A stretch of 64,000 nucleotides of DNA, taken from contig JAPPBT010000025.1 of assembly GCA_026702745.1 (NCBI GenBank), positions 62,001 through 126,000 of the forward strand. The letters are read 5' to 3'. Origin of the DNA: Gemmatimonadota bacterium. Lineage in GTDB: Bacteria > JAAXHH01. The position numbers were made by a program, and so were the translations under genes. The notes under the pieces were generated by a model. It saw only the letters and a program-made list of their open reading frames with translations, searched no databases and had not been told where the DNA came from. Shown here one piece after another: positions 36,213 through 62,547 of this stretch; position 1 is the first letter of the stretch, and every line of letters begins with the position of its first letter.

Positions 36213-36258
36213 CCGCGAAGGGCGGCGGCATGAGTCCGCGAAGGGCGGCGGCATGAGT
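36213..36258. repeat. 23 bp duplication covering the pgsA ribosome site and start codon
   Basis: The unit CCGCGAAGGGCGGCGGCATG plus AGT occurs at 36213-36235 and 36236-36258. It duplicates a ribosome site and an ATG. The upstream copy opens a nine-codon frame (see next entry). Confidence 0.9.
36230..36256 (+). CDS. possible eight-residue leader peptide before pgsA
   Basis: ATG at 36230 starts MSPRRAAA and stops with TGA at 36254-36256, overlapping the pgsA ATG at 36253 as ATGA. It arises from the 23 bp duplication. It may be translated and couple to pgsA, or it may be an inert by-product; sequence alone cannot tell. Confidence 0.35.
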   Translation: MSPRRAAA

Positions 36259-36813
36259 CCGGATTCCGGAGGGAACGGTAGAACGGGACGGTTCTGGACG
36301 CCGCCCAACGTGCTGTCCCTTTCACGCATCGCCGCCGTTCCTTTCATCTACTGGAGTTTCGCCGGGGATGTACTCGTTGCCCTGTATTTACTCGTCGGGT
36401 GGGCTTTTCTGACGGACGCGGCCGACGGTTACCTGGCGCGCCGCTTCCGCTGGTCATCCAGATGGGGGCTCGTACTCGACCCGCTGGCCGACAAGATCCT
36501 GGTCGGCAGCCTGTCGGTCTTCCTGGTCCTGTTCCGGGAATTCCCTCTGTGGGCGGCCGCGCTGATCATCGCCCGCGACCTGTCCATTCTGACTGCGGGC
36601 GCGTATCTGTATCTCAAGCCCGGGAACGTGGTCCTGCCGGCCGACCGGGTCGGCAAGCTGACCACCCTGGCCATGGGCGTCGCACTGGTCCTCTACGTGG
36701 TGGAGTGGCAGCCGTACGGAACGTGGGCTCTCTGGGCGGCCCTCTGCTGCGTGGTCGGATCGGGTCTGCACTACATACTGGAATTCACGCGGCGGGAAAG
36801 ATCGGTCACATGA
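36253..36813 (+). CDS. pgsA: CDP-diacylglycerol-glycerol-3-phosphate phosphatidyltransferase-like protein
   Basis: Membrane CDP-alcohol phosphatidyltransferase, 186 residues, about five helices. The catalytic motif D-G-x2-A-R-x8-G-x3-D-x3-D reads DGYLARRFRWSSRWGLVLDP then LADK, all eight key residues present. It most likely makes phosphatidylglycerophosphate, though other CDP-alcohol substrates are possible. The ATG is the second copy in a 23 bp duplication. The stop overlaps the next gene's ATG (ATGA), linking it to the PqqD/ABC cluster. Confidence 0.88.
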   Translation: MSPDSGGNGRTGRFWTPPNVLSLSRIAAVPFIYWSFAGDVLVALYLLVGWAFLTDAADGYLARRFRWSSRWGLVLDPLADKILVGSLSVFLVLFREFPLWAAALIIARDLSILTAGAYLYLKPGNVVLPADRVGKLTTLAMGVALVLYVVEWQPYGTWALWAALCCVVGSGLHYILEFTRRERSVT

Positions 36814-37763
36814 ATCGAGGGGCATCGAAATGGGTGGTCACCGGTTGGCATCACCTGTCGTTCGAGCGGCCGGAAGACTGGAGCATCGGCGCGGTATCGG
36901 GCGATTTTTCGACGGGCTATCTTCGGCTCGACGATGCGGAGATGCCCCGTTTCGAGCTGAGATGGGAGCGCACGCGCGGCCAGGAATCGGCCGATCAGGT
37001 GGTCGCGAGATACCTCAGGAACCTCACCGGGAAGGGCGGGAGGGGCGGAAAGAAGGCGCCGCCCGTCAAGGTCCGGCGCGACCTGGCGCTCATCAAGGAC
37101 GAGACCGTACTGGCGGACCGCACCGTGGAGGGGTTTCACTGGCGGACGGAAGGACCCGAGCCCCTGCAGGCCTACGGCTGCCTGTGGATGTGCGAAATCT
37201 GCGGTCGCACGGTCTTCGCCCAGGTCCTCGGACGCGGGGGAGAGTCCATGATGACCCGGGCCTCGAGACTGCTGAATACTCTGGACGACCACGCGCGCGG
37301 CGACACCGCCACCTGGGCCGTATACGGACTGCGTATCGAGCTGCCGGCCGACTGCGTCCTGAAGCACCACTCCTTCATGACGGGCCGTATCGAGTTGACT
37401 TTCCAGCGCGGCAACGCCAGATTGGAACTGTTAAGGATGAGCCTTGCCGAAATGCACATGGAGGGCCGGACGTTCCCGGACTGGTTCCAGGACACCTATG
37501 GCAGCGAAATCGACGTCTGGATCGACGACGCCGGTCTCACGGGCGGCCACCCGTCCATCGGCGGGACGGGCCAGGGCGTTGATCCCGAGTCGGTTCACAA
37601 CCACATGGCGTGGCTGCCGTGGCGGCGACCGCGCAAAAAACCATTGAGTTGTCGCGGCTGGCATTGTATCGATGGCAATAGGATATACGTGCTGCGCCAC
37701 CTGGACGAATCACACCGGCCCGAGTTCCTGGACGAAATAGCCGGTACGGTGGTCTGCCACTGA
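36810..37763 (+). CDS. unknown protein with CxxC motif, first gene of PqqD/ABC cluster
   Basis: 317 residues, no signal peptide or membrane helix. The start is taken at 36810 because it overlaps the pgsA stop; the same frame is open back into pgsA but that part is out-of-frame shadow. The N-terminus (SKWVVTGWHHLSFERPEDWS) is beta-rich. A CEIC motif sits at about residue 128, and a second Cys-rich patch (SCRGWHCIDGNRIYVLRH) is near the end. Between them lies a two-fold-looking W...L...P pattern. Possibly metal-binding. Its partners are PqqD-like and ABC exporter genes, which suggests a role in making or handling an exported peptide or lipid, but this is inference. I do not recognise the family. 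Confidence 0.72.
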   Translation: MNRGASKWVVTGWHHLSFERPEDWSIGAVSGDFSTGYLRLDDAEMPRFELRWERTRGQESADQVVARYLRNLTGKGGRGGKKAPPVKVRRDLALIKDETVLADRTVEGFHWRTEGPEPLQAYGCLWMCEICGRTVFAQVLGRGGESMMTRASRLLNTLDDHARGDTATWAVYGLRIELPADCVLKHHSFMTGRIELTFQRGNARLELLRMSLAEMHMEGRTFPDWFQDTYGSEIDVWIDDAGLTGGHPSIGGTGQGVDPESVHNHMAWLPWRRPRKKPLSCRGWHCIDGNRIYVLRHLDESHRPEFLDEIAGTVVCH

Positions 37764-37821
37764 TCTCGCGGGAAGGGTGAGACCGCGTCCATGACCGGGA
37801 ACTTTCACGAGGGTCGTCACC

Positions 37822-38217
37822 ATGCCGTTGTTTCGAAAGAAGCCGCCCCCGCTGCCCCGAAGGGAGTTATTGCGCGCAAAGCCGGTTCGCAACGAGAAGC
37901 TGACCTGCGAGGAGAACTCCGACGGGGAGATCGTGCTGGGCATCCCGAGGCGCAAGACCTGGTGGATCAACACCATGTCCCGGATGTTTTACGTGCCGAG
38001 CCGGCGGACGGTGGTGCTGGACCGGATCGGTTCGTTCCTCTGGGGATTGTGTGACGGGCAGAATACGGTGGACCATGTCATATCGACGATCCGGACCGAA
38101 TACAAGCTGGAACGCAAGGAAGCGGAGGTCTCCACGCTGACCTACCTGAAACAACTCACGGAGAAGGGGTTGATCGGACTGGCCGTGGCAAACAGAAAAG
38201 GAGAAAGGAACGCATGA
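37822..38217 (+). CDS. PqqD-like (RRE) protein
   Basis: 131 residues. A basic N-terminal extension (about 1-35) precedes a PqqD/RRE fold: ...RRKTWWINTMSRMFYVPSRRTVVLDRIGSFLWGLCDGQNTVDHVI and then a winged-helix half ...LERKEAEVSTLTYLKQLTEKGLIGL. RiPP recognition elements normally bind a precursor peptide's leader and hand it to a radical-SAM or other maturase. None is seen here. The stop overlaps the permease ATG (ATGA), so it is co-translated with the transporter. A non-RiPP role is possible. Confidence 0.82.
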   Translation: MPLFRKKPPPLPRRELLRAKPVRNEKLTCEENSDGEIVLGIPRRKTWWINTMSRMFYVPSRRTVVLDRIGSFLWGLCDGQNTVDHVISTIRTEYKLERKEAEVSTLTYLKQLTEKGLIGLAVANRKGERNA

Positions 38218-38876
38218 CGACGGAATCGGCCGCGACGGCCGGCACGACGGAGAAACAGATTTCGCTGCCCCTGTCCAAGGCGATCGAGATCAGTTTCCGC
38301 AGCCTGAGGATCCGGTTCTGGCGGTCGCTGATCACGATCGGAGGCATCTTCTTCGGCATCGCCTTTCTCATGTCCATCCTGACCAGCGCCTCCATCAACG
38401 AAGCGCTCGTGGAAGGTGGTTCCCCTCAGGTCCGGGCGTTGCTGGAACAAAAGGGCGCGGACGGCGATTCGGCGACTCAGCAGGTATGGCTAGTTTCCCT
38501 CTCTCTGCTCGTGTGCGTCGTCGGCATCACCAACGCCATGTTGATGTCGGTAACCGAAAGGTACCGTGAAATCGGAACCATGAAGTGCCTGGGGGCACTG
38601 GACAAGTTCATCATTCAACTTTTCGTGCTGGAGTCCACCTTCCAGGGATTGGTCGGATCGGTAGGCGGGGTCATCATGGGCTGCCTGTTCATGCTGGTCT
38701 CGATGATGACCTCCTATGGATGGGATCCCCTGGTGCTATTCCCGGTACTGGATGTGGTCCAGAGCGGCCTGTATTCGCTGGGGGCCGGGCTGGGTCTTGC
38801 CATCATCGGGGCGCTGTACCCCGCGTACAGGGCATCCCAGATGCCGCCGGCCGACGCCATGCGCACGGAAGTCTGA
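38214..38876 (+). CDS. minimal FtsX/MacB-type ABC permease
   Basis: 220 residues. The N-terminal helix (SLITIGGIFFGIAFLMSIL, about 40-58) is followed by only about 40 residues of loop. The FtsX core comes next, with three helices and the hallmark ITNAMLMSVTERYREIGTMKCLGA (about 102-125), then the C-terminal SLGAGLGLAIIGALYPAYRASQMPPADAMR. Normal MacB/LolCE permeases carry a 200-residue periplasmic domain in that loop, which is absent here. It is probably a dimer with the ATPase encoded next, acting as mechanotransmitter or exporter. Confidence 0.85.
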   Translation: MTTESAATAGTTEKQISLPLSKAIEISFRSLRIRFWRSLITIGGIFFGIAFLMSILTSASINEALVEGGSPQVRALLEQKGADGDSATQQVWLVSLSLLVCVVGITNAMLMSVTERYREIGTMKCLGALDKFIIQLFVLESTFQGLVGSVGGVIMGCLFMLVSMMTSYGWDPLVLFPVLDVVQSGLYSLGAGLGLAIIGALYPAYRASQMPPADAMRTEV

Positions 38877-38925
38877 CGAGGGACTACCGGCGTACGAGGA
38901 GTACCACCGGAACACTTTCCTGGAG

Positions 38926-38973
38926 ATGGAATCAATCTGGAAAGTCGACCTGAAAGGGGCGGGAAATGACTGA
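38926..38973 (+). CDS. possible 15-residue peptide overlapping the ABC ATPase start
   Basis: An ATG at 38926 opens MESIWKVDLKGAGND, ending eight bases inside the ATPase gene. It lies in the 89-base gap between permease and ATPase. A GGAG abuts the ATG, which is too close for a normal ribosome site. It is listed because a peptide-coding frame beside a PqqD-like gene deserves a check; it may be non-coding. Confidence 0.2.
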   Translation: MESIWKVDLKGAGND

Positions 38974-39742
38974 AGAACAGACCGCGGTAATGGACGCGCC
39001 GGATACCGAAACCCAGAACATTGTGCGCACGCGCGGGGTCAAGCGGGTGTACCAGATGGGCAAGCTCTCCCTGGAGGCGCTCAAGGGCATCGACATGGAG
39101 GTCCAGCGCGGGGAGTACATCTCCATCATGGGCCCGTCGGGCTCGGGCAAGTCTACCCTGTTCAACATGATCGGCGCGCTGGACAAGCCCACGGAGGGTA
39201 AGGTCTACATCGACGAGGTCGACGTCGCCCAGCTGGACGCCTACGAACTCGCCTGGCTTCGGTGCCGCAAGATCGGCTACATCTTTCAGACCTTCAACCT
39301 GATCCCGGTCATGACCGCCCTGGAGAACGTTACCCTGCCGATGATTTTCGCAGGACTGGCGACGGACGAGGCCATCGACAAGGGCGTCGACCTGCTTACA
39401 CTGGTGGGGCTCGGTGAACGGGTCCAGCACAAGCCGCTGGAACTGTCCGGCGGGCAGCAGCAGCGCGTCGCCGTAGCCCGCGCACTGGCCAACGATCCGG
39501 CCATCGTCCTCGCGGACGAGCCCACGGGTAACCTGGACCGGAAAACGGGACGGGAGATCATCGAGCTGTTGCGGGAACTGAACCAGGAAAAGCAGGTGAC
39601 GATCATTTCGGCGACCCACGATCTGAAGATGCTGGACGTTTCAGACCGCATCCTGTGGGTGCAGGACGGCAGGATCACCAAGAACCAGCGTCGTGACGAG
39701 CTGGATCTGGACCTGGGCCAGATCGGCGCCGAAGAAGAATAA
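38966..39742 (+). CDS. LolD/MacB-type ABC transporter ATP-binding protein
   Basis: 258 residues. Walker A GPSGSGKSTLF, Q-loop FQTFNLIPVMTALENV, signature LSGGQQQRVAVARALANDPA, Walker B VLADEPTGNLDRKTG and H-loop SATHDLKML are all intact. The Q-loop/LNLIP style is that of the LolD-MacB-FtsE group. It partners the minimal permease upstream. The acidic C-terminal tail (DELDLDLGQIGAEEE) is unusual but short. Confidence 0.93.
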   Translation: MTEEQTAVMDAPDTETQNIVRTRGVKRVYQMGKLSLEALKGIDMEVQRGEYISIMGPSGSGKSTLFNMIGALDKPTEGKVYIDEVDVAQLDAYELAWLRCRKIGYIFQTFNLIPVMTALENVTLPMIFAGLATDEAIDKGVDLLTLVGLGERVQHKPLELSGGQQQRVAVARALANDPAIVLADEPTGNLDRKTGREIIELLRELNQEKQVTIISATHDLKMLDVSDRILWVQDGRITKNQRRDELDLDLGQIGAEEE

Positions 39743-61578: not shown

Positions 61579-62547
61579 TCAGGCGCTCGCCAGGTCGTCA
61601 TGTACCGACCGGGTGTCGATATCCAGGCCGCGCAGCAGGTCTTTCCTGATCTTGCACACCATGGTATAGGCGGGATCGAACACGTTTCCCATGTCGTACT
61701 CGACGCACTGGCCGAGCAGCGTGTGAGCCGCCCTGGGATCGAGACCGTAGTCGGCCTGCAGCCAGCGCAGCATTTCGGTGGTTGCGTGCTGGACGCACTG
61801 GTCGAGGGGCCGGGCGTTGCCCGCCGTGAAAAGGAACTCCGCGTTCTCGCCGCGGGGCCAGGCGCTTGGCTTTCTTTTGAGCACCCTGAAGGTGAACTGC
61901 ACGTCGAAGGAGATCTCGACGCCCGTGCCTACGATCTCTCCGTCGCCCTGCACTGCATGGCCATCGCCGATGTGGAACAGGGCGCCGGGCGCGAACACGG
62001 GGAAGTACGCGGTGACGCCTTCCACGAATCCCCGGTAGTCCATGTTGCCCCCGTGGCTGGCGGAGGTGGCCGTCGAGATCGCCTGCCCCCTGTCCGGCGC
62101 CACGCCGAAACATCCCGTCATGGGCGCCAGGGGCAGGGACATCCGTCCAAGCCGGGTGTCGTCCGGGTCGACCAGCGTGACCGTACTCCGCTCCGAGTCG
62201 ACTTCCCAGCGGCAGAGGTCGTCCCGGCTTTCGATCTCCCCCGCGGTCTCCCGCACGTAATCGGGATCGAGCACATTGGGCGCCACGAGCGGACGCGTCC
62301 AGCCGAAGGGGCGGTTGGGCGTCAACCGGTCCAGGTGCACGGCGAGCGTGTCGCCCGGTTCGGCGCCTTCGATGTGAAAGGGCCCCGTCTGTGGATTCCC
62401 CGGAGACGTCACGGGCGTGTCGGAACGGTCCTTCCCCCGGGCGTCGACCGTCGACGTGACGACAGTATCCCCGTCCTTCACGGGCAGGGCGGGTTCGTGG
62501 GAACCCATGGTGGTGTGATAACGGATAGGTTCGAAGTGGTGGACCAT
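61579..62547 (-). CDS. acetamidase/formamidase family protein
   Basis: 322 residues from the ATG at 62547 (MVHHFEPIRYHTTMG), with GGGAG five bases upstream; the open frame to 62742 is discarded. FmdA/AmdA fold: GDTLAVHLDRLTPNRPFGWTRP, ...PMTGCFGVAPDRG, SHGGNMDYRGF, FHIGDGHAVQGDGEIVGTGVEI. It hydrolyses short amides such as formamide or acetamide, releasing ammonia; other amides possible. Confidence 0.9.
   Translation of the reverse strand: MVHHFEPIRYHTTMGSHEPALPVKDGDTVVTSTVDARGKDRSDTPVTSPGNPQTGPFHIEGAEPGDTLAVHLDRLTPNRPFGWTRPLVAPNVLDPDYVRETAGEIESRDDLCRWEVDSERSTVTLVDPDDTRLGRMSLPLAPMTGCFGVAPDRGQAISTATSASHGGNMDYRGFVEGVTAYFPVFAPGALFHIGDGHAVQGDGEIVGTGVEISFDVQFTFRVLKRKPSAWPRGENAEFLFTAGNARPLDQCVQHATTEMLRWLQADYGLDPRAAHTLLGQCVEYDMGNVFDPAYTMVCKIRKDLLRGLDIDTRSVHDDLASA

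Follow-up and report, generated by a model that had tools for sequence, protein, structure and literature searches.

Type VII ATP-binding cassette (ABC) systems, which include MacAB-TolC, LolCDE, FtsEX-EnvC, YbbAP-TesA and BceAB, act on the periplasmic side, and it is their partners that define them (PMC12646458). A core of this type in which one periplasmic domain is missing has a precedent in BceAB (PMC12646458). Here, we describe a four-gene set in a sponge-associated Gemmatimonadota bacterium (GenBank assembly GCA_026702745.1), at positions 36810-39742 of the window, a 64,000-nucleotide stretch spanning positions 62,001 to 126,000 of contig JAPPBT010000025.1. The set belongs to a conserved, multi-component, type VII ABC-like system that is apparently undescribed: no account of such a gene set was found in the open literature. 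The system resembles the type VII systems in its FtsX-type permeases, LolD-type ATPase and large ectodomain partner, a giant protein in which the MacB_PCD-like domain resides. It differs from them in that one permease lacks a periplasmic domain and the other carries what is probably an M28-like pseudo-peptidase. Further, its partners are an OPT-fold transporter, a PqqD-type protein and a tandem PsbP-type protein, and several giants are found per mini-permease.

Gene order and co-occurrence across genomes

Four open reading frames (ORFs) on the forward strand of the window make up the set: a 317-residue protein (36810..37763), a PqqD-type protein of 131 residues (37822..38217), a mini FtsX-type permease of 220 residues (38214..38876) and a LolD/MacB-type ABC ATPase of 258 residues (38966..39742). 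The initial annotation, prepared by inspecting the sequence, had reported four linked genes with two ATGA overlaps. Indeed, the overlaps lie between the upstream pgsA gene and the 317-residue gene (36810-36813) and between the PqqD-type and mini-permease genes (38214-38217). The remaining gaps are 58 and 89 bp.

Close relatives of the 317-residue protein occur in metagenome-assembled genomes (MAGs) labeled Candidatus Latescibacterota or Gemmatimonadetes (e.g., JAJEAN010000007 and SB0665_bin_8). More distant relatives occur in approximately 55 Candidatus Poribacteria MAGs and in one labeled Firmicutes UBA5435; the protein was found in 81 of the 85 Poribacteria genomes searched. In the two distant phyla that were looked at first, the set stands behind genes for two larger proteins: the giant, in which an M28-peptidase-like ectodomain is joined to an FtsX permease, and an OPT-like transporter.

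Gene order was surveyed in 83 loci, some being duplicate records of one genome (loci are designated L, genomes G, and contigs of the window's genome C). The order giant, OPT, 317-residue, PqqD-type and ATPase was present in 48 loci, and the same layout with a doubled OPT gene in 6 more. The full six-gene order was found in three (L025, L116 and L146), and the window's arrangement, 317-residue, PqqD-type, mini-permease and ATPase, in 13 of Latescibacterota type. The PqqD-type gene is kept in most loci. Genomes G315 and G175 carry giant, OPT, PqqD-type, mini-permease and ATPase genes without the 317-residue gene, the giant of G175 being split by a contig end, and G443 carries giant, OPT, mini-permease and ATPase genes with no PqqD ORF called. 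The recurrence of the window's arrangement in 13 loci, and in most of the others with genes added, indicates that the set is more than a chance association. It also disposes of the concern, raised at the outset, that the order might be unique to one genome.

Phylogenetic profiles of the giant, OPT-like, mini-permease and 317-residue proteins were compiled over the same 384 genomes. The giant was present in 29 of these and the OPT-like protein in the identical 29. The mini-permease was present in 28, with one match each, all among the 29; the only giant/OPT genome without it, G014, is 83% complete. The 317-residue protein occurred in 23 genomes, none outside the giant/OPT set, such that the four sets are strictly nested. 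Outside the window's order, the giant, OPT-like protein and mini-permease were each found in 13 genomes, the sets being identical (Fisher p 3e-24, uncorrected for phylogeny; the 13 genomes belong to eleven families).

Linkage varies among lineages. In the three Poribacteria examined, the mini-permease is encoded at a separate locus, next to another LolD-type ATPase, one not placed in the supported clade of operon ATPases. The window's genome has three giants (C5, C65 and C101) and three OPT-like genes (C7, C10 and C101), with neither an ATPase of the set's family nor a mini-permease beside any of the three giants, and a single copy each of the mini-permease and 317-residue genes. Other genomes of the same order have even more giants; in G012, approximately seven or eight, some of them fragments, accompany one mini-permease. 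In the window's order the giants and OPT genes have multiplied and moved away, and one copy of the four-gene set is left. The set had been presented as a minimal exporter, a description that does not stand because its two largest partners are encoded elsewhere in the genome.

In 65 loci of Poribacteria (L024, L131-L188), a conserved protein of 55-65 residues with two predicted transmembrane (TM) segments is encoded between the giant and OPT genes. Its motif, MEKLA...GGxWQxQ...AHxWEEL, was not found in other lineages, and the protein is probably a Poribacteria-specific extra subunit.

Predicted domains and folds of the components

The giant comprises 1,460-2,490 residues. Its N-terminal part consists of a signal or anchor, a PA domain, an M28 domain (PF04389, 35-42 bits; cut-off 21.3) and three TM helices; its C-terminal part consists of FtsX TM1, a MacB_PCD-like domain, FtsX TM2-4 and a conserved cytosolic domain of approximately 150 residues. 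PF02687, the FtsX-type permease family, matched both the giant (47-56 bits) and the mini-permease (73.8 bits) above its cut-off of 25.5, in keeping with the conserved C-terminal TM2-4 region of type VII permeases. For the periplasmic domain between TM1 and TM2, PF12704 exceeded its cut-off in two giants (L025 and C5 of the window's genome), fell below it in that of L024, and was not listed for the other two giants of the window's genome.

Using canonical M28 paralogues as a control, we scored the catalytic positions in 69 copies of the giant. The HxD motif, whose His is a zinc ligand, was replaced by [YFS]xD in all 69, and the catalytic/ligand Glu-Glu position read HF in 68 and HS in one. Another 16 copies, most of them cut off where a contig or region ends, did not fit the pattern and were left unscored. 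Catalytic residues are thus lost from every M28 domain scored, and the domain is probably a pseudo-peptidase. Nicastrin, the pseudo-peptidase of gamma-secretase, provides an analogy only.

The membrane and PCD core of the giant resembles the PADLOC model CARF_m8 LolE_TM (PDLC01991) over approximately 600 of 810 positions (E 1e-57 to 1e-67). In nearly all giants the match stops at position 593-701, in some fragments earlier and in none later; the C-terminal 110-200 or so model positions are unmatched, and no giant matches the full length. A defense system was considered and rejected, as the PADLOC matches of the ATPase are generic and the CARF_m8 match is limited to the giant's permease core. 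No relative of the permease was found in viral contigs, and phage families yielded nothing informative.

The model of the OPT-like protein (predicted local distance difference test, pLDDT, 81.8) gave two significant PDB matches, both to barley YS1 (HvYS1; 7wsr and 7wst, Foldseek E about 2e-9). The match to 7wsr had an E value of 1.9e-9 and TM-scores of 0.59/0.66. The predicted fold is thus that of the OPT/YSL transporters, although identity to barley YS1 is only 14% and most members do not reach the PF03169 cut-off: PF03169 matched at all in 4 of 20 members, and one system member, that of G433, exceeded the cut-off. The OPT assignment is based on this fold match, the sequence-profile link to canonical OPTs being weak (E 0.003). 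Membrane proteins of the DUF6785/DUF6784 type (~685 residues) are encoded at or near giants at L088 969-3029 (C101) and L090 11193-13247 (C65). No paper on them was found; they are possibly a second OPT-related partner family.

In the mini-permease, the TM profile places approximately 35 residues between TM1 and TM2. The protein therefore lacks a MacB/LolE-type periplasmic domain. It scored 45.9 bits against the lolCE model, whose cut-off is 362. The ATPase (PF00005 ABC_tran, 117 bits; cut-off 25) is of the LolD/MacB class; its best NCBIfam match is LolD (TIGR02211), at 235 bits, below the equivalog cut-off of 307.75. On these scores, the set would not qualify as a LolCDE lipoprotein-releasing system. 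The initial description as a MacB/LolD-type transporter is corrected in one respect, the missing periplasmic domain of the permease.

The PqqD-type protein matched PF05402 at 45.6 bits (cut-off 23.4), which bears out its first identification as PqqD-like and akin to the recognition element (RRE) of ribosomally synthesized and post-translationally modified peptides (RiPPs). It lies below every NCBIfam PqqD cut-off despite this match. It shares the PF05402 match, well over the cut-off, with PqqD/RRE proteins, but sits in a transporter operon without RiPP enzymes.

The 317-residue protein had no Pfam or NCBIfam match above cut-off, in keeping with its initial designation as a member of an unknown family; it did not prove to belong to a family with an unrelated well-known role. 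Its AlphaFold2 model (pLDDT 87.9, predicted TM-score 0.83) was compared with the PDB using Foldseek. PsbP (4rth) was matched with an E value of 5.8e-5, and all nine chains at E ≤ 0.001 were PsbP or PsbP-containing photosynthetic complexes; Mog1, SciW and Tsi3 ranked lower. The two halves, residues 6-163 (36825..37298, forward strand) and 164-317 (37299..37760, forward strand), are homologous (hhalign E 5e-8, probability 94.8). The predicted structure is that of a tandemly duplicated PsbP/Mog1/DcrB-type domain. Its fold is common to these proteins, including the Eag chaperone SciW; such chaperones bind and stabilize the transmembrane domains of effectors (PMC12881460). It differs from them in its duplication, its lack of a sequence-level family match and its gene context. 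None of 44 homologues had a signal peptide or TM-like hydropathy peak, and the protein is probably cytosolic. The CxxC motif noted in the window's copy (C128/C131) is present in only 25 of the 44 homologues, and the segment that holds it has a counterpart, WHCIDGNR, in the second half of the protein. Being unconserved and part of a repeated segment, the motif is not evidence of redox or zinc function, and such a role was rejected. The giant's C-terminal domain was likewise rejected as a third PsbP-like unit, as hhalign gave no similarity.

Candidate functions of the system

The composition of the system is well supported; from it, we infer a mechanism and a substrate. Our preferred reading, to which we give slightly less than an even chance, is that the four genes supply a type VII machine with its nucleotide-binding domain, its mini-permease and its accessory proteins in the cytosol; the machine would pair with giants and cooperate with OPT proteins. 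The LolD-type ATPase and domain-less mini-permease would form one transporter half, and one of several giants, with its periplasmic PA and M28-like pseudo-peptidase ectodomain, the other. On the outer surface of the inner membrane, the ectodomain would bind ligands of a peptide-like or peptide-chelate kind. TM movements driven by ATP would then release or present them; the most likely recipient is the OPT-type transporter, which would take them up. In the cytosol, the PqqD-type and tandem PsbP/Mog1/DcrB-type proteins may serve as adaptors or chaperones that bind peptides or hydrophobic segments.

Several points weigh against this proposal. The data concern gene content, gene order, co-occurrence and folds; the giant-mini-permease pairing, the direction of movement and the ligand class are proposed. 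The 317-residue gene is missing from six of the 29 giant/OPT genomes, one of them incomplete, and the protein is therefore considered accessory. The genome-wide profile is limited to the giant, OPT-like, mini-permease and 317-residue proteins. The window's genome encodes its giants away from the set and has further ATPases of the LolD/MacB type. Finally, most type VII systems perform periplasmic work without transmembrane transport (PMC12646458), which makes the coupled import step speculative.

By analogy with energy-coupling factor (ECF) transporters and their S-components, a single ATPase/mini-permease motor might serve several giants, the ATPase, mini-permease, PqqD-type and PsbP-like module energizing interchangeable giants and OPT partners. 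We regard this arrangement as possible but doubtful. If it held, the system would represent a distinct class of envelope peptide-handling machine, conserved in uncultured phyla, that uses the RRE fold outside RiPP biosynthesis. The data suggest that one motor serves many receptors in a type VII ABC system, and that a PqqD/RRE-type protein has a role outside RiPPs. The gene system occurs in Poribacteria and several other little-studied phyla, sponge-associated bacteria included, and brings together five kinds of protein that are not known to cooperate. Its gene sets offer concrete material for asking what uncultured bacteria take up or sense.

We consider it unlikely that the giant, mini-permease and ATPase instead extract a hydrophobic envelope lipid or lipoprotein from the inner membrane, with the M28-like ectodomain as receptor, like LolCDE or YbbAP-TesA. 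Such a function would fit the ATPase's best NCBIfam match and the giant's MacB_PCD-like domain, and in YbbAP-TesA a periplasmic hydrolase is joined to a type VII ABC (PMC12646458). Transmembrane domains are bound by Eag chaperones, which have the fold of SciW (PMC12881460). However, the LolD score lies under the equivalog cut-off, and extraction leaves the strict OPT-fold partnership and the PqqD-type protein unexplained.

Still less probable is a signaling device, in which ligand binding by the giant would be passed on by the type VII core to the PqqD-type and PsbP-like proteins in the cytosol, with the OPT protein as the target of the response. BceAB- or FtsEX-type systems set a precedent, the giant has a conserved cytosolic C-terminal domain, and its permease core is related to CARF_m8 LolE_TM. 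In addition, genes for GAF-GGDEF diguanylate cyclases adjoin the operon in several lineages, at L025 9412-10626, L192 7022-8236 and L206 11676-12779, and a convergent GAF-GGDEF gene lies at L116 12683-13888. A sensor kinase or regulator is, however, not constant in the loci, and the GGDEF neighbor was not seen in Poribacteria or in the window's order.

In that order the four genes make up a compact, self-contained group, as would be expected if the ATPase and a homodimeric mini-permease exported a small peptide independently of the giants and OPT proteins. This possibility is very unlikely given the perfectly nested co-occurrence with the giant and OPT in 28 genomes and the operon shared with them in other lineages.

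We find hardly credible a RiPP export or maturation cluster with the PqqD-type protein as its RRE: the protein matches PF05402, and PqqD-like proteins beside transporters usually point to RiPPs (PMC7470986), but the system genes include no radical SAM, YcaO, protease or peptidase. The initial annotation had made the same point, together with the lack of a clear precursor, and this was borne out at the system loci. Of the combination of RRE, maturase and precursor that marks a RiPP cluster, the RRE-type protein alone was found. A search of the operon gaps for precursor ORFs returned just out-of-frame shadows and the Poribacteria-specific two-TM ORF, the sole conserved coding small ORF there; in L025 and L206, the gaps are too short for a precursor. 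As neither a maturase or protease nor a conserved precursor ORF was found, the suggestion of an incomplete RiPP exporter was abandoned, and that of an RRE-type protein outside any visible RiPP pathway, in a conserved and apparently undescribed system, was retained. Elsewhere in the window's genome, on C83, lies another cluster (L026; G000 C83:96000-114000). Its two PqqD-family genes are approximately 7 kb apart and are accompanied by apparent radical SAM genes and an apparent ABC exporter, judged by inspection of the sequence; it is likely a genuine RiPP-type cluster.

Neighboring genes

The upstream neighbor of the set is a pgsA-type CDP-alcohol phosphatidyltransferase gene (36253..36813, forward strand; PF01066, 113 bits), to which the set had been described as coupled. 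This coupling was present in the members of the order that were tested (L021, L022 and L023) and absent from six tested loci of other lineages. The link is one of synteny within a single order; pgsA is not considered part of the system, and a functional link was set aside. The next gene after the set in the window is secA, which is convergent. In other members of the order, a DUF6807 gene lies 3' of the set (L021 10517-11668, L022 8906-10045 and L023 8794-9945), its identity being Pfam-checked in L021 only. Putative LamG-type genes were recognized by eye at L116 1201-2019 and, possibly, downstream in L024 and L075. A secreted LamG-type protein near the system was confirmed using Pfam at L205 2950-3678.

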